From a virus: a stretch of DNA of 37,157 bases. The DNA lies in IMG/VR virus record IMGVR_UViG_3300042111_000276, positions 1-37,157 of that record; one strand, 5' to 3'. Position numbers and translations under genes: made by a program. The notes under the pieces were generated by a model. The model ran no database searches. It saw nothing but the letters and a program-made list of their open reading frames with translations, and was not told the origin of the DNA. The first letter of the stretch is position 1, and each line of letters opens with the position of its first letter. This document shows positions 4,009 to 37,157 of this stretch, piece after piece.

Positions 4009-4288
4009 TCCGTGCCCGTGGTCCCTGGTTGCAATTCATTGGACCGACGCGTTTGACTCAGAGAACGGTTGGATATGCATACGGGAATACAAACCCAAGT
4101 CATGCGAGGTGGTTTCGGTGGGCTTCCTCTATCCAGATGCCCTGGATGGTTACATCTCGATCACCGGTTCCTACATGCCGGACGAGTTGCCGGAAATGGA
4201 AACGGTCGGTATGATTACGCACATACCATGCGCGATGGTCAAAAAAATCGTCGTGCTTGAACAACCCAACTGGAGTCAACCCAGCTAA
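3989..4288 (+). CDS. Conserved small phage protein of unknown function
   Basis: Encodes 99 residues from ATG 3989; GTG 3983 in the same frame is an alternative, and AGGGTAGGGTG lies just upstream. It overlaps the end of the metallophosphoesterase gene. Features are an N-terminal block WSLVAIHWTDAFD, a middle strand CEVVSVGFLYPDALDGYISI and a C-terminal IPCAMVKKIVVL. Small proteins with an HWxDA-type N-terminus and a VGFL strand occur widely in phages near DNA metabolism genes; none has a function known to me. It is probably a small beta-rich domain. Confidence 0.65.
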   Translation: MSAGSISPCPWSLVAIHWTDAFDSENGWICIREYKPKSCEVVSVGFLYPDALDGYISITGSYMPDELPEMETVGMITHIPCAMVKKIVVLEQPNWSQPS

Positions 4289-4304
4289 AACCCAAAGGAG
4301 AAAC

Positions 4305-5249
4305 ATGAACAACCGAACAATCAAGAAGCCCGCGCACGGGAGCGAACAGTGGCTTGCAACAAGATGGAAGGACGAGAACAATCTCGCCAGGATTTCTGCA
4401 TCCGTAGCAGCGGCGGTGCATGGTTGTCACCCGTACACAACCGGGGCCGATTTGGCAGTCGAGTTATTGTCGGACACCCCACCGACACCACAGCCAGAGA
4501 ACAGGGCGATGATGCGGGGCAACACACTTGAGACACCGATAAGGGATTGGGCTGCAAAGTTGTTGGGTCGCGGACTCAGCACCCCGGTAGTCATGCACGT
4601 GTACGAAGAGGACGGCGTACGTCTCATTGCCACGCTCGATGCGATTGATGACGACGGCGGGGTCTTTGAGATCAAGACGACGCGCAAACGATGGAACAAC
4701 AAACTGCCGGACCATTGGTATTGGCAGGGCGTACAACAGGCAATCTGTGCCAACGTCGACAAAATCACCTGGGTCGTGTTCGACAGCGACCTCGACCTGC
4801 AGTTTCACGAACAAAGGGTGACCAGTGATGAGAAACGCCTGCACATAGAAAAGTGCCGCAACTTTCTTGCAGCCATCGACATGGGCATGGTTCCGGATGA
4901 TGCGTCGATGAACTATGAAAACGTATCCGACCTGTTTCCCAGGGGGCAAGGCACGAGCATTGAATTGAATGATGAATGTGCAGAACTGCTCCGGAACTAC
5001 AACAAGATGCAGGCAACCATAGCATCCCTTGAAGAGACATGCAAAGACATCAAGACGCGATTGTGCCAACAGCTTGGTGATTCTGAGTACGGTCACGTTG
5101 ACGGTCAGCTTGCGTGCACGTGGAAGACTGCGACCCGCACCTCATTCGATACCAAGAAGTTTGAGTTGGAACATCCGGCGCTTGCCGCTAGATTCAGGAA
5201 ACAAACCACGTATCGAACGTTCCGTTCGGTCGAAGCAAAAGGAGAATGA
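4305..5249 (+). CDS. YqaJ-family viral recombinase (exonuclease)
   Basis: A 314-residue protein. ATG 4305 is preceded by AAAGGAG at the right distance, so the upstream in-frame ATG at 4257 is rejected. The YqaJ/lambda-exonuclease pattern is complete: GSEQWLATR (residues 12-20), ISAS (30-33), RGNTLE with Glu76, ATLDA with Asp112, and FEIKT with Glu122 and Lys124, the metal-binding and catalytic residues of a PD-(D/E)xK nuclease. The C-terminal 100 residues are helical and end in a strand-rich tail. Such enzymes chew 5' ends of duplex DNA and hand single strands to an annealing protein, and the next gene is a candidate for that partner. Together they would form a Red-like recombination pair. 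Confidence 0.9.
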   Translation: MNNRTIKKPAHGSEQWLATRWKDENNLARISASVAAAVHGCHPYTTGADLAVELLSDTPPTPQPENRAMMRGNTLETPIRDWAAKLLGRGLSTPVVMHVYEEDGVRLIATLDAIDDDGGVFEIKTTRKRWNNKLPDHWYWQGVQQAICANVDKITWVVFDSDLDLQFHEQRVTSDEKRLHIEKCRNFLAAIDMGMVPDDASMNYENVSDLFPRGQGTSIELNDECAELLRNYNKMQATIASLEETCKDIKTRLCQQLGDSEYGHVDGQLACTWKTATRTSFDTKKFELEHPALAARFRKQTTYRTFRSVEAKGE

Positions 5250-5250
5250 C

Positions 5251-6045
5251 ATGAGGTTCAACCTCGACAACTACGAGACGGTGGAGGCGCGCCTCGCCAA
5301 GTTCTGGGAAATGTACCCGAACGGACAGGTGTTCACCGCCATCCATCACTACGACGCGGACAAGGTCGTGTTCCGTGCCGAGATATACAAGGACATCTCC
5401 GACCCGCGCCCCGTTGCCACGGGATACGCCGAGGAGATTCGCGACGCATCCCCGGTAAACCGAACATCGCACGTGGAAAATGCGGAGACCTCGGCAATCG
5501 GCAGGGCTCTCGCCAACTACATCTTTCAATCGAAGACCGCGCCCCGTCCGAGCCGGGAAGAGATGGCAAAGGTGGCACGACGGGAAGAACCAAAGTCGGA
5601 TGCCGATCTTCTTACGAGGTTCCGCGAGGCGTGCGCCAAGGCCGGGCTTGACCCGCAGGACGTTGCCAAATCTGCAGGCGTTGACCTGTATGAACTGACC
5701 AACGAGTCCATGCCCAAGTTGCGTGACGCGTTCAAGGCAATGCAACAGCCCAAGCCAGAGCCAGCCCCGGTTGGGGACAACCTCCTTGACAAAGTCAAAG
5801 AGGCTTTTCCTTCGGCCGAAGTCACCGATCAACCACAGGTCAAGGACCCAGATGCACCGGCAACGAACGCACAGATAGGCAAGCTGCGTGCGATGCTGTT
5901 GGCAAACGGTATTGGTGAGCGACCCAAACAGGTGGAGGCGGTAGCCGAGATAATCAATGCGCCACTTGCCAAACTTGACATGCTGACCAAGGGTCAAGCC
6001 AATGCCGCAATCAAGGCCCTTGATGCAAGGGCAAATCGTGGATGA
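5251..6045 (+). CDS. Rad52/Sak-like single-strand annealing protein candidate
   Basis: A 264-residue protein starting at ATG 5251, two bases after the exonuclease stop, with AAAGGAG upstream. The N-terminal 95 residues are conserved-looking: a helix (ETVEARLAKFWEMYP), a strand pair, TGYAEE (57-62), then VNRTSHVENAETSAIGRALA (69-88). The last segment resembles the helix of Rad52/Sak proteins with the pattern ESAxKxAETDAxKRAL. The call is inferred from this and from the partner exonuclease. A helical repeat (about 112-160), a proline-rich linker and a small C-terminal domain (about 205-260: NAQIGKLRAMLLANGIGE) follow. Annealing proteins coat single-stranded DNA and pair it with complementary strands. 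Confidence 0.6.
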   Translation: MRFNLDNYETVEARLAKFWEMYPNGQVFTAIHHYDADKVVFRAEIYKDISDPRPVATGYAEEIRDASPVNRTSHVENAETSAIGRALANYIFQSKTAPRPSREEMAKVARREEPKSDADLLTRFREACAKAGLDPQDVAKSAGVDLYELTNESMPKLRDAFKAMQQPKPEPAPVGDNLLDKVKEAFPSAEVTDQPQVKDPDAPATNAQIGKLRAMLLANGIGERPKQVEAVAEIINAPLAKLDMLTKGQANAAIKALDARANRG

Positions 6046-6497: not shown

Positions 6498-7043
6498 ATG
6501 GACCTTGTTGTTCGGATGTTTGCATTCATATCGGCCGTGTTCTTCGTGGTCGGTATTGGATCCAGGGACGATGTAGAAAGCGTCCCTGTGTCCACCACCA
6601 GCACGAGCACGGTTTTGGTAGGGGGGTCGTCTCCTTCCCTCGCCTACCAACCGGCCCCCACCACAACCACTACATATGCCATTCCGTCCACGGCTCGGTG
6701 TGGTCAGTGGTGGGGGCTGGCGATTGAAATTGGATGGACCGAAGAAGCAATGGAAACCCTTGACTACATAATGTGGCGGGAATCCCGCTGCGACCCCACC
6801 CAACACAACACCGAGCTGAATGCCGATGGTTCCACCGATGTCGGCCTGACCCAAATCAACGACCGCTCGTGGTGTTTGCCGACCCGCTGGTATCCGAAGG
6901 GATACTTGCAAACAGTCGGTTTGTTATCTAGCATTGGGTGCGAACAGTTGTTCGCTCCCGAAACAAACCTCAAGGCGGCAAAGGAAATCTATGACTACAC
7001 CAGAAAGCACGGAGGCACCGGCTTCGAAGCGTGGGGGTTATAG
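6498..7043 (+). CDS. Secreted lysozyme-like transglycosylase (SLT-type)
   Basis: A 181-residue protein from ATG 6498. The first 22 residues form a hydrophobic signal or anchor (VVRMFAFISAVFFVVGIG). A Ser/Thr/Pro-rich linker (about 25-65) precedes a lysozyme-like domain with the catalytic glutamate in IMWRESRCD (Glu95) and the GLTQIN motif followed by DRSWC. Cysteines at 68, 98 and later could form disulfides outside the cell. SLT enzymes cut the glycan strands of peptidoglycan. It lies far from the endolysin cassette and directly before a regulator, which is unusual for a lysis gene. It could act early on the host wall, or be a helper lysin or superinfection factor. Confidence 0.8.
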   Translation: MDLVVRMFAFISAVFFVVGIGSRDDVESVPVSTTSTSTVLVGGSSPSLAYQPAPTTTTTYAIPSTARCGQWWGLAIEIGWTEEAMETLDYIMWRESRCDPTQHNTELNADGSTDVGLTQINDRSWCLPTRWYPKGYLQTVGLLSSIGCEQLFAPETNLKAAKEIYDYTRKHGGTGFEAWGL

Positions 7044-7317
7044 CTACATGGAACTGATGAGCGAATGGCAACTCAACAACAGGGACTTTTCTTGGATGGA
7101 TTACGCGGCCTGCATCGGAGCCGACCAAAGTATCTTCTTTGCCGACACCGGTGGCTGGCACGCAAGACACGAGAAGGCGCGCGAGTATTGTGGGAAGTGC
7201 ATCGTGTACAAGAATTGCATGAAGTTTGCCATCGACAACCAGATTGAGTACGGTATTTGGGGCGGTCTATCACCGTCGCAGCGCAAAGCAAATGGAGGCA
7301 AGCATGTCGGAGAATGA
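6991..7317 (+). CDS. WhiB-family transcriptional regulator
   Basis: A 108-residue protein from ATG 6991, preceded by AAAGGA and overlapping the transglycosylase end by 53 bases. The four iron-sulfur cysteines are present as C-x25-C-x2-C-x5-C (Cys41, 67, 70, 76), followed by the GIWGG turn (88-92) and LSPSQRK. WhiB proteins bind a [4Fe-4S] cluster, contact the primary sigma factor and steer transcription. They are restricted to actinobacteria and their phages, so the gene fixes the host phylum. Phage WhiB proteins can interfere with host WhiB2 and septation (known for mycobacteriophage TM4). The basic C-terminus after the turn is short, so DNA contact may be weak. Confidence 0.93.
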   Translation: MTTPESTEAPASKRGGYSYMELMSEWQLNNRDFSWMDYAACIGADQSIFFADTGGWHARHEKAREYCGKCIVYKNCMKFAIDNQIEYGIWGGLSPSQRKANGGKHVGE

Positions 7318-8010: not shown

Positions 8011-8164
8011 TAGGTTCAAGTGCCCGAGGTGCGACAATGCGATTACCCTTCATGTCAAAACGACGGAAGCGCCGCGATGCACAAGACACGCACCAAGGTC
8101 TATACCAATGGTCAGAACAACAGGAGACAAACATGACAGACTACCCGCCATCGTTCACGGTTAG
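7997..8164 (+). CDS. Small zinc-ribbon protein (55 aa)
   Basis: From ATG 7997 (ATG 8000 adjacent) to TAG 8164. Residues 7-13 read FKCPRCD, and a third cysteine with nearby histidines follows (PRCTRHAPR). The sequence FKCPRCDNAITLHV with TEAPRC is typical of short actinophage zinc-ribbon proteins. The last third (PMVRTTGDKHDRLP) is polar and probably flexible. It overlaps the previous gene by 14 bases and the next by 32 bases. Function unknown; such proteins are presumed nucleic-acid or protein binders. Confidence 0.6.
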   Translation: MMLRNRFKCPRCDNAITLHVKTTEAPRCTRHAPRSIPMVRTTGDKHDRLPAIVHG

Positions 8165-8348
8165 CGATCTTCAAACGGCCGAAGAGGTTCTCACGGAACT
8201 TCTTTGCCTGGCTATCACGGTTCGCCCGGAGCTGCGGCTACCGATAACGGCCCTAGCCGAGAGCGTTGCCGACATTCTTTCACCGGAGGCAATTGAACGC
8301 TCAAAGGATTATGCGCGATACCGGACGGTGGAAAAACCCGAGGCATAA
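8133..8348 (+). CDS. Small helical hypothetical protein
   Basis: A 71-residue protein from ATG 8133 after AGGAGA. It is acidic and largely helical (DLQTAEEVLTELLCLAITV, then ITALAESVADILSPEAIERS). It is the last gene before a strong terminator, so it closes the WhiB/zinc-ribbon operon. No family recognised. Confidence 0.6.
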   Translation: MTDYPPSFTVSDLQTAEEVLTELLCLAITVRPELRLPITALAESVADILSPEAIERSKDYARYRTVEKPEA

Positions 8349-8385
8349 CACCACGGCTACCGATACCATTCATTACGCCATACAC

Positions 8386-8420
8386 AAAGACCCACAGGCT
8401 TCAAGTGTCTGTGGGTCTTT
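8386..8420 (+). terminator. Rho-independent terminator closing the WhiB operon
   Basis: A perfect 12-bp stem (AAAGACCCACAG at 8386-8397 with CTGTGGGTCTTT at 8409-8420) encloses an 11-base loop and is followed by a T-rich stretch (GTCTTTATCC). The A-rich left foot could let it work on the opposite strand too, though no genes oppose it. Confidence 0.85.
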
Positions 8421-8441
8421 GTCTTTATCCGTATTTCTTAG

Positions 8442-8486
8442 CAAGCCCCCCCCTTCGGGGGGGGCTTGACGGTTCGGTCAGACTTG
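8442..8486 (+). promoter_or_regulatory. UUCG-capped leader hairpin, copy A
   Basis: A perfect 12-bp inverted repeat (8442-8453 with 8457-8468) is closed by a C-UUCG-G tetraloop. Exactly eight bases later comes GTCAGACTTG (8477-8486). The same arrangement recurs at 12991-13031. No T-run follows, so it does not look like a terminator. It lies 56 bases upstream of the ATG of the 117-aa gene, after the terminator at 8386-8420, and so heads the accessory cassette. It may be an RNA structure in the leader or a protein-binding site. Confidence 0.65.
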
Positions 8487-8542
8487 CCCCGACGAGCCGA
8501 CCAAATCTAGAGTTGGCAGTCACAACCAAGGAGATAACAGCA

Positions 8543-8896
8543 ATGCCCAAGAAACGCAAGTCCAAGAACATACCGATTACCATCGAGAAGGAAGCAGTCA
8601 GCCACAAGTTTCGTTCTGCTCTTGCTTCCAGCAAGCGTGGTCAAGTCGGAAGACCAGCAACCAAGTACAACCAAGTCATTGCCCTTGTTGGCACTGAGTT
8701 GCCGTACTTCATTGATGCCTGTTGTGACCCAAGGGTTACAACCCGTCAGTTGATGGAGACAGTCACAAACCTGGGAGTTCCAGTCTCCTATGTCACCATG
8801 ACTCACATCAGGAAGCAAATCGAACAGGACAATCGTTGGTACTACGAGATGATTGACCAGATTGATGACCCAAAGGATTCGGTAAGGGTCATCTAG
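8543..8896 (+). CDS. Basic hypothetical protein, first gene of the MoxR-vWA cassette
   Basis: A 117-residue protein from ATG 8543 with a strong ribosome site (AAGGAGAT). The N-terminus is very basic (MPKKRKSKN) and the middle has GRPATKYNQV. The stretch TTRQLMETVTNLGVPVSYVT followed by MTHIRKQIEQD has the rhythm of a helix-turn-helix. A DNA-binding regulator of the cassette is therefore possible but not shown by any family I recognise. It is preceded by the hairpin leader and followed by a structured 140-base gap. Confidence 0.6.
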   Translation: MPKKRKSKNIPITIEKEAVSHKFRSALASSKRGQVGRPATKYNQVIALVGTELPYFIDACCDPRVTTRQLMETVTNLGVPVSYVTMTHIRKQIEQDNRWYYEMIDQIDDPKDSVRVI

Positions 8897-9036
8897 TTTC
8901 CCCCATTCTCGCTGTGTGTTCTTCTCCACAGCGAGACAGGCAGTTGTGCGCCTGACTGTTACCCGTCTGCTGGCAGACCAGCGGAAAGAGCACATCTAGT
9001 CTGCCACCATAACCACAACCCACAGGGAGAACAACC
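8897..9036 (+). other. Structured intergenic leader before the 271-aa gene
   Basis: Contains a perfect 10-bp hairpin (TCTCGCTGTG at 8907-8916 with CACAGCGAGA at 8927-8936, 10-base loop), then two weaker hairpins around CAGGC/GCCTG and GTCTGC/GCAGAC before the ribosome site AGGGAGAA at the GTG start. No gene is visible. The first hairpin lacks a T-run. It could be a processing site, an attenuator or an mRNA stabiliser. Confidence 0.5.
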
Positions 9037-9852
9037 GTGAACGAAGACGAAAAGTTATTGGCTGAGACAGCCGAAATCATCAACAACGCTGCGACCAACT
9101 TCAAAGGCGATTACACCGAATACAGACGGCAAGTCGCCATTGATTTGGAAGAAACGCTTTGGCAGGAGTATGGCGTTTGTGAAACCTATGTGCTCTGGCG
9201 ATTGGGCTTGGCACACAAGGGCGACAAAGACTCTATGACCAAGTTCAAAGACGAACTAAACACCAAGGCTGGTGAACAGATTCAAGAAATCAAGGTCAAT
9301 CACCAGTTTGACCAAGATGTCAACAGCATTGTTCGTATGGATATGGCCTACTTTGCCAGAGAAGGTTTGCCAGACACCATCAAGGGTCTGCTCAACAACA
9401 CAGCCCTTATGACAAGACTTCATCGCGGAGATGACTTCGTCGGTTTGGTAGCCAGAACTGGTGCTTGGGCATCCCAACAGGATGATGTCAAACCAAGCGA
9501 ATCCAAGGACAGGCAGTCAATCACCGTGACTACCATTGCCATCAACGGACTAATGACAATCATTGCCCGTGATGACAAGACCGGTAAGCGTATGGATACG
9601 ACGCTGAGTCTTTCGTACTTCGTGCCAAGTACCAAGAAACACGGCAACAAGGTCAAGTCCTGCTTCATCCAACTCACAGAAGAACACGGAGAAATGCCAG
9701 CAGCAGTCTATGCTGCTTGTTCTTTCCCGTTACTTGCCAAGATTATAGACCCGCAGATGTTCGCTGCGTGTCTCAAAGACCTTGACCAAACGGTCAAAGG
9801 GTCTGACGGCGAAGAGTCGTCAGACGAACCCACAGGAGATAACAACCAATGA
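9037..9852 (+). CDS. Hypothetical protein upstream of the MoxR ATPase (271 aa)
   Basis: Starts at GTG 9037 after GGGAGAA. The N-terminal third is acidic and helical (DEKLLAETAEIINNAATNF). The middle has EEYG-like helices and FVGLVARTGAWASQQDD, followed by a beta-rich segment (QSITVTTIAINGLMTIIARD and TLSLSYFVPSTKKHGNKVK). The C-terminus is strongly acidic (SDGEESSDEPTGDN). No signal peptide or membrane segment. Its stop overlaps the ATG of the AAA+ gene by four bases, so the two are translated together. Family unknown; context suggests a substrate, adaptor or target-recognition subunit of the ATPase. Confidence 0.65.
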   Translation: MNEDEKLLAETAEIINNAATNFKGDYTEYRRQVAIDLEETLWQEYGVCETYVLWRLGLAHKGDKDSMTKFKDELNTKAGEQIQEIKVNHQFDQDVNSIVRMDMAYFAREGLPDTIKGLLNNTALMTRLHRGDDFVGLVARTGAWASQQDDVKPSESKDRQSITVTTIAINGLMTIIARDDKTGKRMDTTLSLSYFVPSTKKHGNKVKSCFIQLTEEHGEMPAAVYAACSFPLLAKIIDPQMFAACLKDLDQTVKGSDGEESSDEPTGDNNQ

Positions 9853-10571
9853 CAACCAAACCACAACCACTCACGGACTGGCAGAAAGCAGAGTTCGCCA
9901 TACAGCACTCCAACAGGGTGTTGTTATACGGACTACCCGGTACTGGCAAGACATACTTCGGGCTGAATGCCAGCCTGAAGGGTCGCAACTCGTACCGTCT
10001 CATCTGTACCGAAGAGATGACAGACGCAGACCTTATCGGCTGCTACAAGCAGAACAAGCAGGGCACTTGGTCATTCGCTGAAGGCGTTGGCATCAAGGCT
10101 TGGCGTGAAGGCGCAAGGCTTGTCGTTGACGAAATCAACCGTATGAACGGTGATGTCGAGAGCCGTATGATGGCTTTGATCGACAGCGTCAAGTCAAGCA
10201 GTTGGCAGCATCCAGATACCGGTGAAGTGGTCAAACCACACAAGGACTTCTCTGTCGTTGCGACAATGAACGGCTTACCAGAAGACCTAGCACCTGCCAT
10301 TCTTGACCGTCTTACCGTCAGGTGTCAGGTCAATGACCCACACCCAGACGCTTTGGCATCATTGCCTGAGTACCTGCGTGGTATCGCACAGACTATGACC
10401 AGTCCGAATGCTCGCAACCGTTATTCGTTGCGCTCATTCGTTGAGTTCAACGCAATGTACCAAGCAAGCAACAACCTAGAGCATTGTGCTCAGGTGTTGT
10501 TTCCGGAAGACCATACTTCAGTGACCACGGTACTGAAGGTTGGCGCCCAGAAAGCGAGTGATTCAAAGTGA
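9849..10571 (+). CDS. MoxR-type AAA+ ATPase
   Basis: A 240-residue protein. Walker A is GLPGTGKT (residues 28-35), Walker B is LVVDEINRM with Asp94-Glu95, sensor 1 is ATMNG with Asn141, and a DRLTVR arginine-finger block is at 153-158. The DEINRM and ILDR signatures place it in the MoxR/CobS group of AAA+ proteins. It is shorter than usual MoxR proteins (about 300 residues), with a short C-terminal lid. MoxR ATPases form rings that remodel client proteins or insert cofactors, almost always with a von Willebrand A partner, and such a partner is encoded by the next gene, which overlaps by four bases. Confidence 0.88.
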   Translation: MTTKPQPLTDWQKAEFAIQHSNRVLLYGLPGTGKTYFGLNASLKGRNSYRLICTEEMTDADLIGCYKQNKQGTWSFAEGVGIKAWREGARLVVDEINRMNGDVESRMMALIDSVKSSSWQHPDTGEVVKPHKDFSVVATMNGLPEDLAPAILDRLTVRCQVNDPHPDALASLPEYLRGIAQTMTSPNARNRYSLRSFVEFNAMYQASNNLEHCAQVLFPEDHTSVTTVLKVGAQKASDSK

Positions 10572-11965
10572 GACGCCACGACTTTATGGGTTCAGCATTG
10601 CCCAAGCGTGCCAGACAAAAGAACGCCAAGTTCAAGGATACTGGTGGTTTCGTCAGTGACATTTCTTCAACCAATGTCACCGTCACCACCAGTGAATCCG
10701 GCAGTTCATACTCAGTGCCGTCATTCGACGGTGTTGAGTTTGACAGAATGAGACGCTACGGTCTGGTGCTTACACGCTGGTCGCTTCACGACCCAAGCAA
10801 ATACGCCAAGAGTTGGAAGGTCACACCACAGACGGTTGTTTCGGCAAGCAGGGTTGTGAGTAATCGCCTGTTCACCAACACCTTTGACGGTGAAGACCCA
10901 ACCAAGGACACAATCAACATCAAGCCTTATGTCAATGCTTTCAAGTCTCTGGCAATCAGCAAGGACTTGACCACTGCGACACTATCGTTGGTTGGCACCA
11001 AAGCGTTCAAGCAGATACTCGACGAAATCAGGGGGCAATCAAACCTTGAAGAAGTGGTTGAGACTCTTGAAGCAGCAGAGAAAGCGCTTGACCAAATGGT
11101 GCTGAACGGTTTGTCCAAACTTGATGGTCTACACTCCAAACAACAGTACAAACAACGCTGGGCAATAGACGCCTATCGGAACATTGTCCACTACTTAGAC
11201 CATTACTCTGATGTCACCCAAAGACGGGCAAACGAAGCCATTTCTCGCAAGAGAAAGGGCAAGGGTTCGGGAGTCAAACCAACAAACGGCAAGCACGGTG
11301 AACGAACCAAGAAGAGAAGCAATGTCATAGTGCGCAGGGCGCCAGAACTTGCCCTAGACGATTGGTGTACGCCGTATGTTGCCAAGTACCCGTTGGAACT
11401 ACCCCATACCGGCAAGGCTGGTAGGCGTTTGATTCCAACCAACGAAGGCAAGTATCCCAAGGCGTTCTATCGATTGGTCACAGACCCATACCGTCGTATC
11501 TTCCAGCGCAAGACAAGGGCGCTTGGTGGTGTGGTGGTCATTGACTGCTCGGGCTCAATGGGTTTATCCGACGAAGACATTGACCAAATGCTCAAGGTGT
11601 CTGCTGGTTGTACGGTCATCTGTTATTCGTCACACCTTGACGAAGGTGAGTGGGATAAGAACCACGGCAACATACACCTAGTCGCCAAGAACGGTAGGCG
11701 TATGCGTGGTTTGCCTGACTTTCCGGGTGGTAATGGCGTAGATTTGCCAGCCTTGCGCTATGGCTACGAACACCACAGAATCAACGGTTTCTCGCCAGTC
11801 ATCTGGGTTTCCGACGGTCAAGTAACGGGCAAGGGCGATATGTGCTCAGACGCCCTTTCCGACCAAACCAGCAAGTACACCAAGAAGCACAAGATTCCAA
11901 GGGTACACAATACCCAGCAGGCAATCAAACTACTAGCGAAACTCCAAAGGGGGATAAAGAAATGA
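10568..11965 (+). CDS. von Willebrand factor A (vWA) protein, CobT/MoxR-partner type
   Basis: A 465-residue protein. GTG 10568 overlaps the ATPase stop (GTGA); ATG 10586 is an alternative. The N-terminal 300 residues are helical and charged, including a basic linker (SRKRKGKGSG). The C-terminal vWA domain has the metal-site motif DCSGS (326-330) in VVVIDCSGSM and a third-loop WVSDG (Asp416). The second-loop threonine is apparently replaced: GNGVDLPAL has Val391 where GTDL is usual. Such proteins dock on the MoxR ring and recognise the client. Cobaltochelatase CobT and nitric-oxide-reductase NorD share the plan, but metal chelation cannot be claimed here. Confidence 0.85.
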   Translation: MRRHDFMGSALPKRARQKNAKFKDTGGFVSDISSTNVTVTTSESGSSYSVPSFDGVEFDRMRRYGLVLTRWSLHDPSKYAKSWKVTPQTVVSASRVVSNRLFTNTFDGEDPTKDTINIKPYVNAFKSLAISKDLTTATLSLVGTKAFKQILDEIRGQSNLEEVVETLEAAEKALDQMVLNGLSKLDGLHSKQQYKQRWAIDAYRNIVHYLDHYSDVTQRRANEAISRKRKGKGSGVKPTNGKHGERTKKRSNVIVRRAPELALDDWCTPYVAKYPLELPHTGKAGRRLIPTNEGKYPKAFYRLVTDPYRRIFQRKTRALGGVVVIDCSGSMGLSDEDIDQMLKVSAGCTVICYSSHLDEGEWDKNHGNIHLVAKNGRRMRGLPDFPGGNGVDLPALRYGYEHHRINGFSPVIWVSDGQVTGKGDMCSDALSDQTSKYTKKHKIPRVHNTQQAIKLLAKLQRGIKK

Positions 11966-12621
11966 CAGACGAAGAGCAGGTACTCAAGTCGCTTGAAGAC
12001 TTGGTCAAGGAAGCAGAGTCCAAGATGGAGACTGAGTTCACAGACATCCTGATGAAGTCAATCGTCTACTTCCGTGACCAATCAACAGAGCATCTGGTCG
12101 ACAAAGACAAGAGTGGCGTACATCTGTTCGTCATTTCCCAAGTTGATGACGACCAGATACCCACTGATGTCGTGATGGCAGACCCATTCAGTCTGAAAGA
12201 CGAACCCCACGCCAACTGTTGGTTTGGTCATTTCTTTCGCTTTGATGATGTGGAAGAAGCAACGACTATGATGCTCAACCCCAAGTCATCAGTTGTTATG
12301 CACCACGCATCAGACGGCAAGCAGATTGGCTTGTTTATGGTTCAGGACAAGAGCACCTACCTGATGTATGTGAACAACAGGCTGTTGATTCATCAGGTGG
12401 TCAGTCCTTCGGAGAGTCTCACCCATATGGCAGACATTCTCAAAGACGACCCTGATGAGTTCTACGACAAGGCCAAGGTCACCAACGACACGAAGCAACT
12501 GTCAGTGGCTATGGTGTTTCTTGCCGAAGCCGGTGAAGACTTCAAGGCAAGAATGCCAGAAGTCTACAACCTAATCATCAAGCGCCTGACCGAAGAGCAG
12601 GATGACGAAAGCGACGACTGA
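11962..12621 (+). CDS. Acidic hypothetical protein, MoxR-vWA cassette (219 aa)
   Basis: Starts at ATG 11962, overlapping the vWA stop (ATGA), with AAAGGGGG upstream. It is acidic and soluble, with an N-terminal helix (EEQVLKSLEDLVKEAESKME), a beta-rich centre (VHLFVISQVDDDQIPTDVVM; GLFMVQDKSTYLMYVNNRL) and a final helix rich in Glu and Asp. A short FGHFFRFDDVEEA stretch and HHASDGKQIG are distinctive, but I recognise no family. Coupling to the vWA gene argues for a common complex. Confidence 0.65.
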   Translation: MTDEEQVLKSLEDLVKEAESKMETEFTDILMKSIVYFRDQSTEHLVDKDKSGVHLFVISQVDDDQIPTDVVMADPFSLKDEPHANCWFGHFFRFDDVEEATTMMLNPKSSVVMHHASDGKQIGLFMVQDKSTYLMYVNNRLLIHQVVSPSESLTHMADILKDDPDEFYDKAKVTNDTKQLSVAMVFLAEAGEDFKARMPEVYNLIIKRLTEEQDDESDD

Positions 12622-12773
12622 TGTTCAAACACATAGCAACTGTATTACTACCCATCAGTGTGTTGAGCGCCTTTCGGGAAGCAGCCAAAGCGCCTTGGCA
12701 TCTGTGGGATTACATAGTGAACGGTGGGTTTATCACTATTTGCGTCATCCTGTGGGTTGCTCTGCGTCGTTAG
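12621..12773 (+). CDS. Small membrane protein at the end of the MoxR-vWA cassette (50 aa)
   Basis: ATG 12621 overlaps the previous stop (TGATG) and the frame runs to TAG 12773. Two hydrophobic stretches are visible: residues about 5-18 (IATVLLPISVLSAF) and 37-48 (FITICVILWVAL), joined by REAAKAPWHLWDY. The end is Arg-Arg. One or two membrane passes are likely. The coupling suggests it works with the cassette, for instance as a membrane anchor or pore, but this is inference. Confidence 0.55.
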   Translation: MFKHIATVLLPISVLSAFREAAKAPWHLWDYIVNGGFITICVILWVALRR

Positions 12774-12990
12774 TTGTCTGGTTGGTAGGCAACATAACCG
12801 TAGAGAACCTGCGCCAAAGGGGGGTAGTGCGTCTAGGATCAGGCGCATTACCCCCTGAATCGCTACCGATACAAACATTTAGCCGCCTGACACGCAGTCT
12901 CTATCACTAACTTGTAGTAATCCTTGACCATCAAGTATCTAACTTAGGTGTTCTTAGCATTATGGTGGGGCGAACACTTGTTCGCAAATC
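12774..12990 (+). other. Non-coding stretch between the MoxR-vWA operon and leader copy B
   Basis: No convincing gene. It contains a 12-bp hairpin with one G-T pair (12820-12831 with 12844-12855), probably a terminator or attenuator without a clear T-run. It also holds a short inverted repeat CTTGA-cca-TCAAG at 12923-12935 and a 6-bp hairpin GCGAAC/GTTCGC near 12970-12985. TTCTTAGCA (12951-12959) is also found just before leader copy A (8435-8443). A promoter for the 97-aa gene probably lies here, but I cannot place it with confidence. Confidence 0.5.
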
Positions 12991-13031
12991 CAAGTACCCC
13001 TTCGGGGTACTTGACGACCAAGTCAGACTTG
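12991..13031 (+). promoter_or_regulatory. UUCG-capped leader hairpin, copy B
   Basis: A perfect 10-bp inverted repeat (CAAGTACCCC at 12991-13000 with GGGGTACTTG at 13004-13013) is closed by C-UUCG-G, and exactly eight bases later comes GTCAGACTTG (13022-13031). Compared with copy A at 8442-8486, the stem differs in both arms while pairing is kept, and the downstream decamer is identical. It stands 45 bases upstream of the ATG of the 97-aa gene. Confidence 0.65.
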
Positions 13032-13076
13032 GTTCAGCGACGGCAACCAGCCGAAGCACAAACAAGGGAGACAACA

Positions 13077-13370
13077 ATGTCTACATTGCTAGAAGCAATA
13101 GACAAAGCCGTTGTAGAAAGTGGCAGTTTCTATGCCACTTTCCACTACGGTCGGGATACCAACGGAAACACCACTGGTGAAGTGTTCGTCAGAGTATCTG
13201 ACGGACAACTCTCTGGTGCGCCAGAAGTCGGTTCTGGTGTCGTGGTCATTGAGAAGAAATCCAAAGTCCAAATCGGTACTTTGGGTGAACTCAAAGGCTC
13301 AGTTCAGTCAATGGGAGTGAACTACTCTCTCTGGACTTTCGTGAACCAGACTGCCCTACTTCGTAAGTAG
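13077..13370 (+). CDS. Hypothetical protein with its own leader (97 aa)
   Basis: Starts at ATG 13077 after AAGGGAGA; an ATG at 12948 in the same frame runs through the leader hairpin and is rejected. The product looks like a small beta-rich domain (SGSFYATFHYGRDTNGNTTG, GEVFVRVSDGQ, GVVVIEKKSKVQIGTLGELK, VNYSLWTFVNQ). No family recognised. It stands alone between the hairpin leader and two strong terminators, so it is likely transcribed at a level different from the operon before it. Confidence 0.65.
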   Translation: MSTLLEAIDKAVVESGSFYATFHYGRDTNGNTTGEVFVRVSDGQLSGAPEVGSGVVVIEKKSKVQIGTLGELKGSVQSMGVNYSLWTFVNQTALLRK

Positions 13371-13430
13371 GTCAGGTCAGTCACTTTGGCAATGACGGTA
13401 AGTTGGTCGTTCTCCACAAGATGACGGACA

Positions 13431-13468
13431 AGGGGTATGGGGCTTTCGCCCCATACCCCTTTCTTTAT
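13431..13468 (+). terminator. Rho-independent terminator 1 after the accessory cassette
   Basis: A perfect 13-bp stem (13431-13443 with 13448-13460) with a four-base TTTC loop is followed by TTCTTTATG. This is a canonical strong intrinsic terminator. Confidence 0.9.
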
Positions 13469-13491
13469 GTCTCCAACCTAATCAGACGGTC

Positions 13492-13531
13492 AAAGGCGCA
13501 TAGGGCTAAAGCCCTATGCGCCTTTCTTTCT
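13492..13531 (+). terminator. Rho-independent terminator 2 in tandem
   Basis: A perfect 15-bp stem (13492-13506 with 13511-13525) with a TAAA loop is followed by CTTTCTTTC-type T-rich sequence. It lies about 30 bases after terminator 1, and together they insulate the cassette from the packaging genes. Confidence 0.9.
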
Positions 13532-14847: not shown

Positions 14848-16797
14848 ATGCCAAAAGGGAAACGTCACATCTCTCCGGAGGATCGCGCCATGTTCTGGCA
14901 GGCGATGCAGTCCGGGGTAAACATGAAGGAAGCCGCCCGTATGGCCGGCATCTCGTATGCTTCGGCTACCAAGTGGGTGGCAAAGGCCAAGGCCACGTCG
15001 GCCGAACTGGACAAACAGAACCTGGAGTTCGGCAAGCAATCCGGCGGCAATGCCCTGAAGCGCGACCTGGTGGTGGCAAAGGAACTGCCACCCGTCGTTC
15101 CGCCATCCCGGCTCTCCAAGCACTCGGCCCGGGCCCTCGAAGACTTTGACTACTTCCGCATGCGCTATTTGGGCAGGGTGCCGAGCAACTGGCAGGTGGA
15201 CGCGGCCTACAAGATCGTGTCCAAACTGGAGTCCAACGACAAGGAGTTCCTGGTCCTCAACTGTCCCCCGGGTGCGGGCAAGTCGACTTTGTTCCATGAC
15301 GTAGCCGTATGGTGCATCGTGCGGAACCGGGCAATCCGTGTGATGATTGGCTCAATTTCCCAGACCCTGGCAAAGATGTACAGCCGGCGCATCCGTGAGA
15401 CATTGGAACGAACTTCGCCTCTTCGTCCCGACCCGGAGATGGTCAGGCGCGGACTGGCAATCGACGCCGAGGCGTGCCTGGCTTTGGACTTTGGGCGCTT
15501 CAAGCCGACCCACGTGGGTGCCCTGTGGCGCGCCGAAGAGTTCATCGTCGAGCAGTACGGCGAGGGAGGACTGGACAACAAAGAGCCGACCGTGTCGGCC
15601 TACGGCATCGAGTCGGAGTTCATCGGACACCGTGCCGACCTGTGTTTGTTCGACGACGTGGCATCTCCGGAGAACGCAAAGGAGTCCGCAGCCCGCGACA
15701 AGTTGTTGGAGCGCTGGGATTCGATGGCCGAGGCCCGCGTCGAGCCGGGTGGCGTCCTGGCGGTGATCGGACAGCGGCTGGGACCACAAGACCTATACGC
15801 ACATTGTTTGGCAAAAGTGACGTACGAAGAAGACCCCGATGACTACGACGGTAGCGATATGACCACCAAAGAAGACAAAGAACCCGTCAAGCAGTACAAG
15901 TACGACCACATCGTCTACAGGGCCTACTATGACGAACTCGACACGGGACCTGAATCCAGGCGCACGCTGGCACCGGCCTGGCCCAACGGTCCGCTTCTTG
16001 AGCCGTTCCGTCTTTCATGGAAGGACCTGTCGTATATCAAACACAACTCCCCAATCAAGTTCGCCACCGTCTACCAACAGGAAGATTTGGTCGAGGGCCA
16101 CTATCTCATCGACAGGGTTTGGGCAACCGGCGGCATGGGCGGGGACGGCGTGTTGTATCCGGGGTGCATCGATCAGGATCGCAGACCCGGCTACATCCCG
16201 CCGAACCTCGAACCACCGATCATCTCCATTTGTTCCGTGGACCCCAGCCCGACGATGTTCTGGGCGGTGCAGTGGTGGTTGTACCAACCGGCGACCAAGC
16301 TGCGCTACTTGATTGATTTAGAACGGGTCAAGTTGACCGCCGAAGAACTGCTCGGATACGACGTGTCCAGCCGCGAGTACTACGGCCTCATGGAGGAATG
16401 GCAGAACCGTTCATGGGAACTTGGCTACCCCATTAGCCACTGGGTGGTGGAGATCAACGCTGCGCAACGATTCCTTCTTGCGCACGACTTCATCCGCAAG
16501 TGGCAGGCATTGCACGGCACCAACGTCGTTCCCCACACGACCAACCGCAACAAACTCGACGACAACCTGGGCGTCGAAGGATTGCTGCCGCCACTCTGGA
16601 GATCCGGCTCCGTGCGACTGCCGACGATGCGGGACAACTGGAAGACCCTGGCGTTCGTCGACGAGATGACTTCCTGGACCAGGGACAAGAAGAACGGCAC
16701 CGACCTCGTGATGGCGCACTGGTTTGCCGAGCTGCACATGCCCGCCCTTTCCCCGCTCCGTCCACCACCAAAACTATGGCGTCCGTCATGGATTTAG
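14848..16797 (+). CDS. terL: Terminase large subunit with fused N-terminal helix-turn-helix
   Basis: A 649-residue protein. An N-terminal helix-turn-helix (residues about 24-46, MKEAARMAGISYASATKWV) resembles small-terminase DNA-binding domains. The ATPase has Walker A CPPGAGKST (139-147) and Walker B LCLFDDV with Asp269-Asp270. The RNase-H-like nuclease shows Asp465 (SVDPSPTMFW), Glu535 (WVVEINAAQ) and Asp619 (GTDLVMAHW) in the right order. The enzyme pumps DNA through the portal and cuts it. No separate small terminase is recognised, so the fused domain may do the DNA recognition. The gene opens the packaging and head block. Confidence 0.92.
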   Translation: MPKGKRHISPEDRAMFWQAMQSGVNMKEAARMAGISYASATKWVAKAKATSAELDKQNLEFGKQSGGNALKRDLVVAKELPPVVPPSRLSKHSARALEDFDYFRMRYLGRVPSNWQVDAAYKIVSKLESNDKEFLVLNCPPGAGKSTLFHDVAVWCIVRNRAIRVMIGSISQTLAKMYSRRIRETLERTSPLRPDPEMVRRGLAIDAEACLALDFGRFKPTHVGALWRAEEFIVEQYGEGGLDNKEPTVSAYGIESEFIGHRADLCLFDDVASPENAKESAARDKLLERWDSMAEARVEPGGVLAVIGQRLGPQDLYAHCLAKVTYEEDPDDYDGSDMTTKEDKEPVKQYKYDHIVYRAYYDELDTGPESRRTLAPAWPNGPLLEPFRLSWKDLSYIKHNSPIKFATVYQQEDLVEGHYLIDRVWATGGMGGDGVLYPGCIDQDRRPGYIPPNLEPPIISICSVDPSPTMFWAVQWWLYQPATKLRYLIDLERVKLTAEELLGYDVSSREYYGLMEEWQNRSWELGYPISHWVVEINAAQRFLLAHDFIRKWQALHGTNVVPHTTNRNKLDDNLGVEGLLPPLWRSGSVRLPTMRDNWKTLAFVDEMTSWTRDKKNGTDLVMAHWFAELHMPALSPLRPPPKLWRPSWI

Positions 16798-16818: not shown

Positions 16819-19800
16819 ATGGCCAGTAAGAAATCAAACAAGAAGATTCAACGACGCTTCGTGGAGGCCAGGGCCGCCGGTCTGGGTTTGGAATACGAAG
16901 ACCTGACCCTGGAACAACGGGAACGGTTCCAGGACCGTTTCCAGACACTGTCGCAAACCGTCGAGGGTCGCGGAAAGATTGCCCGGCGCATCCTCGGGCC
17001 GGACGCTCCGCAGGAGTCCCGCCGCGCACTGCGCCAGCGAATCAGGCAAAACCTCCCGGACACCGAACTGCCGGGCACCGACCTTGGCGATGCCGGTCCA
17101 ACGATCACCAGCAAGCAGATGACGATGCGCGATTTCCGTCGCGCCGAAATGCAAACGTCCGACTATCAACGGGGTGACTACGCGCGCGCCGGGGCAGAAG
17201 AAGCAAGAAAAAGATTGCGCACCGGGGAACGAGCCACCGGCACAAAGCGCGTAACCGTAACGACCCAGGACCGCGACACTGGTGGCGGTATCTTCGGCAA
17301 CATCAAGAAGGCGGCATCAGCCGTCGGTGGTTACGTGCAATCAGAGCTCGAATACCAACAGCGTGCGTACGTCAATCCAGTCATCAACCTTGCCGGTCGC
17401 GTCAGCGACGTGATTGGCAACAAGGGTCCTGGTCAAAAATTCAAGCCGTTGCCACAACTTAGCGACCGGGAAGTCTTCGTCGAGTCAGGCGTGGTCGTAT
17501 TGACCGCTGGTGCCGCCAAGGTCATTCCTGGTGCCAGCGCCGCTGCGCGCAGTGCAATCTCTTCGGCTGGCAAGGCAATTGGTCGACGCGGAGCGGTTCG
17601 TGTCGGGGCAGCGATTGCCAATCCGGCACAACGCGCAATTGCCCGCAGCACGGCTCGTCAACAGGTTCAATCGCAGCTGGCTCGCCAAGAATTGGGCGAG
17701 CGCATGGTCTCGAAATATTCGGATGTTTTTTCCGACATCGTCCCCAGCCGCGTTACCCCGGCACCCAGTGGAGTCAAGCGCACCACTCCGCCGGCAACTG
17801 GAACCAAGCGCACAACCCCGACGAGTCAAACGGCGTCGAAGCCCAAGGTCAAGCAAAAGAGAATCAGCAAAGCAGATCAACCGTTCCTTGAGGATCTTTC
17901 GGCAGATCAACGCTACGACATCTACAGCACCCCGGCGGTTGACCGCCCCGTTGCCCAGCCGGTGCAACCGGCAAATCAGAAAAAACAAAAAGCTGCTCGC
18001 GACCTGGCTAGACAAAGAGACATTGAAAAAAAGAACAAGCTTCCCGCCAAACCAAAACAACAGTCAACATCCACCCCAGAGCAAATCAAATCGTTCCTCA
18101 AAATGATTTCCGAAGGAACGGAAACCGTAACGCTTGCCGGTGGCAAAAAGGTTTTGAGGGTCAAAGATACGCGTCCCATCTATGGACCGCAACCCACTCC
18201 TCCCCTGACTGCAAAAGCAATCGAAATCAGGACCGAGAAATACGCGCCTGGTTTCGGGAAGAATTTTGGCGACATCGAAATGCGTTCCACCGAATACGAA
18301 CCACTGGAAGCCATCGAAAGGATTGTGTCAAAGACCGAGACACCGAAGAAGGCGCCTAAACCAACCTCGGTAAAGAAGCTGGACCAGCCACCGTTGGTTT
18401 CGGCAAAAGTGGACAACGCAATGGAACCGTTGGAGATCCCCGCATCGCCGCGCTCCGAACCGGCACTGCCAAAGCCCAAGCGGGTTTCCAAAAAACCGAC
18501 GCAAAAAAAAAGTAAGAGCGAAGTAGCAACGCCGCAAAAACAAACCCCCGTCGAAATAACGATGGAGGAAGCAGACATTTTACGACTCTATCCGTCTAGC
18601 GCCAGGGCACGGGAAATATACAGGCGACAAAGCGGAATCAAAGACTATGTTCCGGGAACGGGACGCGCGGACATTCCAGTGCAACGCGAAAAGCCGTTCA
18701 CGTACACTTCGTTGTCCGTAGAAGAATTCAAGCGGGTCAACATTCCAAAACCCAAGGAACCGTTGGGTTTTGTTCCGATCAAGAGAACCAAACTTCCGTC
18801 ACAAAGCGAAGCCATGAATCGCCTCGAAGAAAAAGGCAGCATGCTATTCCGCATGTACGACAGGGGCATTGGCAGCGGAAAACGACCCGGTGGCCCAGCC
18901 GGAGAAATGAACACCGGTCTATCCGCGCAACAACAGGTCGACGACCTTATTTCACCCATTTCTACCGGACAACCGGTTCTGACAAAATCTCAAGAACAAG
19001 CACTAAAGAAACAAATAGATGAAGTGCTGCAGGATGAGGCAGCAATTCGCACTGGTCGCTCAATCAATCCGCGATACCGTCGCGCACCCAGAAAAGACGT
19101 TGCCGAAGGCACGATGGAGATGCCGACCAGCATGAGCAAGGCCGACCTAAGGGTGACTTATGGTCTCAAGAAAGCCGAAACCGGCAAAAGCCTGGAACAA
19201 AGACAGTCGGATTTTTTCAGGTCGCTTTATCCCGATGCAAAATCCACGGCCGAGGCACGAAAGCGCTACGCACGAGACATGGGTATTGATCCACGCAAAC
19301 TTGCGCGCTCCCCGATAGGCAGCCCGCTCGGTCGGCTTGCACAAAAATCACCAGTTGGAATCGCCAGGAAAAAGGTGCCGGTTGCGTTCGAGGAGATAAC
19401 GACTGTCGTGGGCGGCAAAGTAAAGACGGTCAAGAAACCAATCAAGTTCAAGACAGAAGAATCGCCCGGCATCCAAACGCTGTTTTCTGCACCAGGTCAA
19501 TTCACCCCGATTGAGGACATCCAAGAAGCGATTTCATCCGGTCGCATCATCACGGACATGCAAAAAATCCGTGGTGGCGCCATGGAAACAAAGGCGGCTA
19601 CATTCAAGAGCCGGGCCGAAATGGCGTCAAGGTTGCGCAACCGCGGTCTTGCCGGTGAGGCTCGTGGTCGAGAATACACGCGCCGCAAGAAGGCGGTCGA
19701 GGAAGGCAAACAATTCCAGACACGATTTGATGAGTTGACCAAACAAAACGTCGACCAACTCATGGGCCTGCCGGCACCCCAACCCACCAAAATCTTCAAG

Positions 19801-19824
19801 AACAAGAAGAGGAAAAAGAAGTAG
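16819..19824 (+). CDS. Large basic, low-complexity virion-associated protein candidate (1001 aa)
   Basis: From ATG 16819 after TTGGAG. The protein is rich in Lys, Arg, Pro, Thr and Gln. It has an N-terminal basic helical part, a section about 215-270 with Ala-rich helices (VVVLTAGAAKVIPGASAAA), and long apparently disordered Lys/Pro stretches (residues about 310-560). Its stop overlaps the GTG of the portal gene. No domain recognised. Position between terminase and portal plus charge suggest an internal or DNA-associated virion protein, or a portal-associated factor. Confidence 0.65.
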   Translation: MASKKSNKKIQRRFVEARAAGLGLEYEDLTLEQRERFQDRFQTLSQTVEGRGKIARRILGPDAPQESRRALRQRIRQNLPDTELPGTDLGDAGPTITSKQMTMRDFRRAEMQTSDYQRGDYARAGAEEARKRLRTGERATGTKRVTVTTQDRDTGGGIFGNIKKAASAVGGYVQSELEYQQRAYVNPVINLAGRVSDVIGNKGPGQKFKPLPQLSDREVFVESGVVVLTAGAAKVIPGASAAARSAISSAGKAIGRRGAVRVGAAIANPAQRAIARSTARQQVQSQLARQELGERMVSKYSDVFSDIVPSRVTPAPSGVKRTTPPATGTKRTTPTSQTASKPKVKQKRISKADQPFLEDLSADQRYDIYSTPAVDRPVAQPVQPANQKKQKAARDLARQRDIEKKNKLPAKPKQQSTSTPEQIKSFLKMISEGTETVTLAGGKKVLRVKDTRPIYGPQPTPPLTAKAIEIRTEKYAPGFGKNFGDIEMRSTEYEPLEAIERIVSKTETPKKAPKPTSVKKLDQPPLVSAKVDNAMEPLEIPASPRSEPALPKPKRVSKKPTQKKSKSEVATPQKQTPVEITMEEADILRLYPSSARAREIYRRQSGIKDYVPGTGRADIPVQREKPFTYTSLSVEEFKRVNIPKPKEPLGFVPIKRTKLPSQSEAMNRLEEKGSMLFRMYDRGIGSGKRPGGPAGEMNTGLSAQQQVDDLISPISTGQPVLTKSQEQALKKQIDEVLQDEAAIRTGRSINPRYRRAPRKDVAEGTMEMPTSMSKADLRVTYGLKKAETGKSLEQRQSDFFRSLYPDAKSTAEARKRYARDMGIDPRKLARSPIGSPLGRLAQKSPVGIARKKVPVAFEEITTVVGGKVKTVKKPIKFKTEESPGIQTLFSAPGQFTPIEDIQEAISSGRIITDMQKIRGGAMETKAATFKSRAEMASRLRNRGLAGEARGREYTRRKKAVEEGKQFQTRFDELTKQNVDQLMGLPAPQPTKIFKNKKRKKK

Positions 19825-36483: not shown

Positions 36484-37157
36484 ATGCCAGCAGTGACACG
36501 TAGACAGTACAAGGGCGCAGCCGCACAGACGACGATCACGAACTCGTTGTCGGCTGGTGACACGTCGGCTACGTTGGCGGCGACGACGGGTTGGCCTTCG
36601 ACTGCGGCGGTGCCGTTCTTCGTGGTCATCTCGCCTGGGACTTCTTCTGAGGAGAAGTGTTTGGCGACGATTTCTGGGTCGGTGCTGACCCTGACTCGTG
36701 CGCAGGATGATACGACTGCGACGACGCACGCGTCGGGTGCTTCGATCTATCCGGTGTTCACGGCGGATGATGCGGATGAGGCGAACAAGTTTGCTTCGAC
36801 GATGACGACTCGCGGCGACTTGGTGACGATGGGTTCGGGTCCCGATTTTGCGCGTATCGCTATCGGTTCTGCGAATACGGTGTTGAAGTCGGATGGTACG
36901 GATGCGTCGTGGGGGACGATTGCTGATGCGAACATTGGTTCGGCGGCGGCGATTGACGCATCGAAGCTTGCGAATGCTCCTATCAACGATCAGATTGCTT
37001 CGTACACGCTTGTGGCTGGTGACCGCAATAAGCGTGTGGTGATGAACGTCGCATCAGCCAACACGGTCACCGTCAACAACTCCATCTTCTCGGCAGGCGA
37101 CACGATCTTCATCGCGAACAAAGGCGCAGGCACCTCGACTATTACGGCAGGCGCGGG
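36484..37157 (+). CDS. Tail fibre N-terminal part (continues at the left edge of the window)
   Basis: ATG 36484 starts a tail-fibre gene; GAGG lies eight bases upstream and TAAGAT at 36469-36474 is a possible -10 box. The N-terminus (PAVTRRQYKGAAAQTTITNS, then GDTSATLAATTGWPSTAAVP) is a beta domain that often anchors fibres to the tail. GDLVTMGSGPDFARIAIGSA and NTVLKSDGTDASWG are typical fibre motifs. The frame is open to the window end. The last 292 bases equal the first 292 of the window apart from six substitutions, so the rest of the gene is at 293-1223. Combined length about 534 residues. Confidence 0.85.
   Translation, partial: MPAVTRRQYKGAAAQTTITNSLSAGDTSATLAATTGWPSTAAVPFFVVISPGTSSEEKCLATISGSVLTLTRAQDDTTATTHASGASIYPVFTADDADEANKFASTMTTRGDLVTMGSGPDFARIAIGSANTVLKSDGTDASWGTIADANIGSAAAIDASKLANAPINDQIASYTLVAGDRNKRVVMNVASANTVTVNNSIFSAGDTIFIANKGAGTSTITAGA
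36866..37157. repeat. Right copy of the terminal direct repeat (circularity overlap)
   Basis: Equals bases 1-292 with six substitutions and no gaps. Five are at third codon positions and silent. The one at 36995 (130 in the left copy) changes Thr to Ile. This pattern is what strain variation under purifying selection would give. Confidence 0.9.

Follow-up and report, generated by a model that had tools for sequence, protein, structure and literature searches.

A MoxR-vWA gene cassette with probable acidic paralogous partners in a small phage genome

Introduction

Why would a small phage carry a MoxR-type ATPase coupled to a vWA protein, and on what would such a pair act? The question is raised by a gene cassette in the virus record IMGVR_UViG_3300042111_000276, which comes from a small freshwater virus of bacteria and whose 37,157 bases are called the window below. 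MoxR-vWA pairs recur in viruses, and in the literature covered here only that of ATV is known from a bench study. An earlier note made from the letters of the window alone had singled out a block of five or six genes with unknown partners as a candidate for an undescribed system, and all its genes and three terminators were found where it had placed them. The argument turns on the following features (aa, amino acids; the sign gives the strand).

9037-9852, +: p271, acidic protein of 271 aa, GTG start, p271/p219 family
9849-10571, +: MoxR-type AAA+ ATPase of 240 aa (AAA_5, NorQ/CbbQ-like)
10568-11965, +: vWA adaptor of 465 aa, GTG start
11962-12621, +: p219, acidic protein of 219 aa, p271 paralogue with an acidic C-terminus
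12621-12773, +: hydrophobic microprotein of 50 aa, putative membrane protein
16819-19824, +: very basic protein of 1001 aa, encoded between TerL and portal, candidate for the client role

We propose that this block gives the phage a protein-remodelling machine of its own, driven by ATP and of the NorQ-NorD/CbbQ-CbbO kind. The pore of a MoxR ring would receive the finger of one vWA protein. As dedicated partners, p271 and p219 would dock on the basic vWA protein and either act as adaptors or hold cargo; the 50-aa hydrophobic protein may tether the machine to the membrane, and the likeliest client would be phage-encoded, namely the basic TerL-portal protein. Complex formation, twisting action, docking and client are what we infer; the analysis itself shows the gene order, the protein families seen in sequences and predicted structures, which motifs are kept or lost, the paralogy, the distribution of charges and the co-occurrence. 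The type of engine is known; here it comes with a lost protease site, new acidic paralogous partners, a small genome and an accessory status, in a small cassette that recurs in freshwater actinophages.

Conservation of the Cassette

Conservation of the gene order elsewhere, which the earlier note had left to be checked, is observed in dozens of IMG/VR contigs: among the relatives collected from that database, the order p271-MoxR-vWA-p219 is kept in most contigs whose length allows it to be seen. The conserved core is made of these four genes. The block of five or six genes described before is present in the window, but the sequences of its 117-aa and 50-aa genes, like that of a neighbouring 97-aa gene, are recognisable solely in close relatives; a hydrophobic open reading frame (ORF) of about 50 aa directly follows the p219 gene in 13 of 28 loci. 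The genes of the window overlap by 4 bp at the p271/MoxR, MoxR/vWA and vWA/p219 junctions, and by one base between p219 and the 50-aa gene.

Relatives with the same gene order are 63-85% identical to the window in MoxR, 35-63% in the vWA protein and 18-51% in p271, MoxR being the slowest-evolving gene and p271 and p219 the fastest. The ratio of nonsynonymous to synonymous substitution rates (dN/dS) ranges from 0.03 to 0.32 in informative pairs, showing purifying selection on the core genes; values up to 1.8 come from a few near-identical pairs, whose ratios are unreliable. All p271-type cassettes form one well-supported group of the MoxR tree (52 rows, support 100/99), in which p271 is recognised in 43. 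Searches by tblastn with the vWA and p271 proteins against named phages gave no match.

A NorQ-Like ATPase and a NorD-Like vWA Protein

The MoxR protein of the window is matched by PF07728 (AAA_5) with an E-value of 2.4e-16 and 60.5 bits against a cut-off of 22, whereas PF07726 (AAA_3) scores 26.7 bits, just under its cut-off of 27; the ATPase is of the NorQ/CbbQ type and not of the MRP type. Its best solved relatives in PDB are midasin, NorQ and CbbQ, and Walker A, Walker B, sensor 1 and the arginine finger are invariant in an alignment of 11 rows. A scan of genome contigs with a MoxR pattern returned four weak matches, from WOR-3 or uncultured organisms (33-35%), and a vWA pattern returned none, the patterns being short enough for diverged copies to escape; within that limit, the scans offer no hint of a home in bacteria for either gene.

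No Pfam profile matches the vWA protein, but structure prediction confirms that it ends in a vWA fold. The predicted model (AlphaFold2, AF2) has a predicted local distance difference test score (pLDDT) of 91.0, and VIA structure matches on residues ~316-465 are overwhelmingly of vWA or integrin-I types (Z 6-8, top 8.1), including NorD from the NorQD complex (9qhd_G; Z 6.9, root-mean-square deviation 3.5, 138 residues). Taken singly, such Z values are middling, and their weight lies in the consistency across VIA rows. The protein is laid out as a helical N-terminal domain (aa 1-232), a low-confidence or disordered linker (234-250), a finger (~254-318) and a vWA domain with a putative metal ion-dependent adhesion site (MIDAS; 316-465). 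In the vWA alignment, HTGxxGRRxI is conserved at the finger position (280-289), as are the C-terminus (LLxKLQxG) and, in the MIDAS, DxSGS (DCSGSM in the window) with a later Asp.

In NorD, a finger with a GRXLL/I motif enters the NorQ pore and the essential C-terminus holds the ring; as ATP is turned over, the vWA domain is twisted relative to the N-terminal domain (PMC13036017; also PMC9976466). The order of domain, linker, finger and vWA, the HTGxxGRRxI motif and the conserved C-terminus match those of NorD, whose layout the window protein has; the likeness is one of layout, and kinship of the N-terminal domains is not part of it. MoxR and the vWA protein very probably form a NorQD-like remodeller. 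NorQ-NorD and CbbQ-CbbO likewise combine an AAA_5 MoxR with a vWA protein that has an N-terminal domain, a disordered linker, a finger and a conserved C-terminus, together with a MIDAS that the window protein matches in DxSxS and the final Asp, but their client is a host metalloenzyme and they have no p271/p219-like partners. As these nearest mechanistic relatives insert metals, the window pair might similarly insert a metal or cofactor into a phage or host enzyme, in the manner of CobS/CobT or NorQ/NorD. However, no metalloenzyme or cofactor gene is recognised in the cassette and there are several MoxR-vWA pairs whose action on proteins involves no metal insertion, so that we regard this as the most improbable of the explanations weighed here.

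In the N-terminal domain of the vWA protein, distant phage relatives bear HExxH followed by EExRxN in 12 of 14 rows, and HEALH stands in the N-terminal part of the vWA protein encoded by the freshwater actinophage DSL-LC01. Profile comparison makes the window domain a homologue of the one found in HExxH-bearing IMG/VR relatives (hhalign 94%, E 9e-8), with RYGLVLTR filling the HExxH column. HExxH is absent from the window protein and occurs in 0 of 36 vWA proteins of p271-type cassettes. Judged by its sequence, this is a metallopeptidase-like domain that has lost HExxH; because of this loss, the machine should remodel and not cut. A coupling of the loss to the gain of p271 was considered and rejected, since p271-less MoxR-vWA relatives of the same phage family are also devoid of HExxH. 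Further freshwater phage contigs (L051-L066, L123) carry a MoxR gene adjoining that of an HExxH-bearing vWA protein, with varying third genes.

Probable Acidic Partners

The p271 and p219 proteins are diverged paralogues (hhalign 97%, E 4e-11) that fit no Pfam or PHROGs family. No homologue of the 271-, 219- or 117-aa protein was found in a described operon, and the first two, whose genes the earlier note called unknown, belong to one family. The predicted model of p271 (AF2) is confident (pLDDT 90.9); it has no convincing fold match in PDB (best VIA Z 5.0, a pilin) and four modest matches in BFVD, Catdawg gp79 among them.

Net charge ranges from -13 to -29 in 41 of 41 p271 rows (mean -22.0), and p219 is acidic in 26 of 26 rows (mean -16.6). 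The vWA protein of p271-type cassettes is positively charged, with a mean of +18.7 and a value of +27.9 in the window, most of it due to the N-terminal domain and the finger, and the mean charge of the N-terminal domain is +7.3 in these proteins against -3.4 in the HExxH type, whose operons are without p271 and p219. Docking of p271 and p219 on the basic vWA protein would be the simplest reading of these charges, and both proteins are likely partners of the MoxR-vWA machine. Some contigs encode a further paralogue, upstream or between MoxR and vWA, with low scores.

The gene of Catdawg gp79 (KF017002 49309-49941, L209) adjoins a DNA polymerase III beta-clamp gene, and its product has a weak structural and motif likeness to p271. 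Profile support for this likeness is weak (E 0.4-0.5 genome-wide), and PS[ED]xxD[RK], a motif common to gp79 and p271, was set aside, being present in only 12 of 41 p271 rows.

A Candidate Client Between TerL and Portal

A long gene (438-1587 aa) lies between TerL and portal in 19 of 19 p271-type phages and in 0 of 31 relatives without p271, where the longest ORF at this place has 264 aa. About 75 N-terminal residues are common to the products, in two related forms, and the remainder varies. With the exception of three lower ones (-2 to +32), the products are very basic (+35 to +89, window +79). When all genes of the window were compared, those within reach that proved consistently specific to cassette phages were, besides the cassette, solely 16819-19824, for which specificity was scored by position (its sequence match covers 9 of 15 cassette phages), and a small gene at 8037-8348, detected by tblastn in 14 of 15 cassette phages, 0 of 6 with a diverged MoxR-vWA pair and 0 of 15 without the cassette.

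As its long homologues occur only in cassette phages, the TerL-portal protein is the likeliest client, an identification that we nevertheless put forward tentatively and hold to be doubtful. It is still less probable, and would be a speculative extension, that the cassette is a phage assembly machine, in which a protease-dead MoxR-vWA motor with paired acidic adaptors would act on a single dedicated virion protein, long and basic, either to unfold it or to load it. To our knowledge, no ATP-driven remodelling of a dedicated virion protein is known in tailed phages of bacteria.

Several observations weigh against the proposed machine. In the TerL tree, carriers of the cassette and of the TerL-portal gene are one side of one branch (98/97), and because they form one clade their co-occurrence amounts to one evolutionary event and is suggestive only, a repeated joint gain of the two being unsupported. 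The Thr expected as third ligand of the MIDAS is not evident, GGNGVD standing at that place. The loss of HExxH is not tied to p271, as the motif is also absent from phages with a diverged MoxR-vWA pair and no p271. Moreover, the core domain of p271 is found on the opposite strand, ~6-7 kb from MoxR-vWA, in two contigs (L052 and L053), and the weak match to Catdawg gp79 would place it outside a MoxR operon as well. Taken as a whole, the combination of a NorQD-like remodeller, acidic phage partners and a phage-encoded client appears to us evenly balanced between holding and failing.

Sister Phages and Alternative Roles

Among the TerL relatives that were collected, a sister group whose TerL is 68-73% and whose portal is 62-82% identical to those of the window shows neither MoxR nor vWA in the sequence upstream of TerL, followed for up to 10 kb, and MoxR is absent from 18 of 19 whole sister records (22-41 kb, some of them maybe fragments). 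Since sisters with such similar portals lack it, the cassette is accessory and this virion type does not need it, which argues against virion maturation as a general requirement, one of the roles offered by the earlier note. A general virion-assembly chaperone has been proposed for ATV p618/p892 (PMC4124505) and for jumbo phages (PMC7824862), and would agree with a cassette near the terminase and a candidate client within the structural operon; facing these sisters, it is improbable.

The same absence would suit the main rival explanation, host takeover or counter-defence, in which the engine, steered by the fast-changing acidic p271 and p219, dismantles or blocks a host complex, or in which the acidic proteins counter restriction or other nucleases by DNA mimicry. 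The accessory position between early genes and terminase and the acidic, fast-evolving nature of p271 and p219 speak for it. In addition, a C5 DNA methyltransferase (for example at 4241-5974 of the sister phage L161) is encoded in 10 of 15 sister genomes without the cassette and in 0 of 9 p271-type genomes (Fisher p 0.002, ignoring kinship). The contrast follows the clades and, taken alone, proves nothing, but it keeps counter-defence in play. Against this explanation, the methyltransferase does occur in two phages that have MoxR-vWA and no p271, MoxR and vWA are strongly conserved, unlike typical arms-race genes, and no known defence family was matched, PADLOC 2023 families giving only generic P-loop matches to IetA/TRIP13 over ~20 residues. 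We consider this explanation possible, though on balance unlikely.

Relatives that share the terminase and portal but not the cassette, peptidase-type relatives and a gene that tracks the cassette offer a natural comparison, which makes the targets of viral MoxR-vWA machines directly testable.

Relation to Known MoxR-vWA Systems

The compact phage MoxR-vWA system, which the earlier note could not match, has precedents: MoxR genes or MoxR-vWA pairs also occur in ATV, haloviruses, jumbo phages, T4-like cyanophages and DSL-LC01. ATV p618/p892, a MoxR-like ATPase with a vWA protein (PMC4124505), and the halovirus AAA/vWA pairs are, like the window pair, virus-encoded and adjacent or interacting, but they belong to archaeal viruses and have no p271/p219, the likeness drawn here being one of protein type; the ATV pair acts on virion proteins. 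The pairs of jumbo phages, which join MoxR to a metallopeptidase-vWA protein (PMC7824862), and of DSL-LC01 share with the window a phage-borne MoxR adjoining a vWA protein; the window differs by the absence of HExxH, the presence of p271/p219 and a much smaller genome, the jumbo-phage pair being compared by its published description. The CobS-type ATPases of T4-like cyanophages and actinophages are AAA_5-like too and 26-32% identical to the window MoxR, but are encoded in large phages with other neighbours.

MoxR-vWA pairs are also found in bacterial conflict systems (PMC7159879), which, together with the membrane-type microprotein that closes the operon, could speak for a role in superinfection exclusion or in defending the infected cell, the 50-aa hydrophobic protein being the membrane component. 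Yet the VMAP or beta-propeller partner of the ternary conflict systems was not found in the window, nor was an effector domain, the bpMoxR profile PF20030 scores 16.7 bits on the window MoxR, far under its cut-off of 27, and the hydrophobic gene goes undetected in half of the loci, making such a role improbable as well.

Flanking Features, Genome Ends and Host

Around the core genes, the window presents the following features.

6934-7317: WhiB-like gene
8037-8348, +: small gene, ORF of 103 aa, just upstream and before the first terminator, specific to the cassette clade (tblastn)
8384-8422, +: intrinsic terminator preceding the cassette, 16-bp stem, -28.1 kcal/mol, z -7.2
8442-8486, +: leader, perfect hairpin and CTTGACG-N5-GTCAGACTTG (motif 8465-8486), preceding the 117-aa gene
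8543-8896, +: basic protein of 117 aa, ATG start, isoelectric point 9.5
12990-13031, +: second leader copy, hairpin and CTTGACG-N5-GTCAGACTTG (motif 13010-13031), preceding the 97-aa gene
13077-13370, +: protein of 97 aa, separate unit with the same leader type, present in close relatives
13430-13461, +: intrinsic terminator
13492-13525, +: intrinsic terminator

Folding energies of the three terminator hairpins lie between -28 and -30 kcal/mol, with z-scores between -6.5 and -7.4. The block indeed has leaders of its own, as first noticed: the CTTGACG motif occurs in two perfect copies, each directly after a perfect hairpin, for a chance expectation of 0.12, and resembling leaders are present in the relatives L004, L005, L016 and L126. 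No sigma-70 promoter is recognisable in these leaders, promoter-like sites are as numerous as expected by chance (4 against 4.5), and neither an Rfam search nor a family search with the 117-aa protein gave a match.

The first 292 bases of the record (1-292) are repeated as its last 292 (36866-37157) with 97.9% identity; owing to this repeat, the record looks like a complete assembly with terminal redundancy and a length of about 36.9 kb, the size already given in the earlier note. The WhiB-like gene points to an actinobacterial host. The nearest named virions are those of Streptomyces podophages, the Beephvirinae FlowerPower and Immanuel3, which are distant (capsid 45-47%, TerL ~25%). Their genomes encode a primase and a DnaB-like helicase, with no MoxR-vWA pair annotated; the scanned genes of the window, which include only part of the small ones, yielded no polymerase, primase or helicase. 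No separate small terminase subunit was recognised in the window. The start of TerL is a helix-turn-helix-like segment (EAARMAGISYASATKWVAK, 14848-15000) that is retained in relatives. The end overlap lies inside a tail-fibre-like gene, and its few differences suggest a slightly mixed population or assembly errors.

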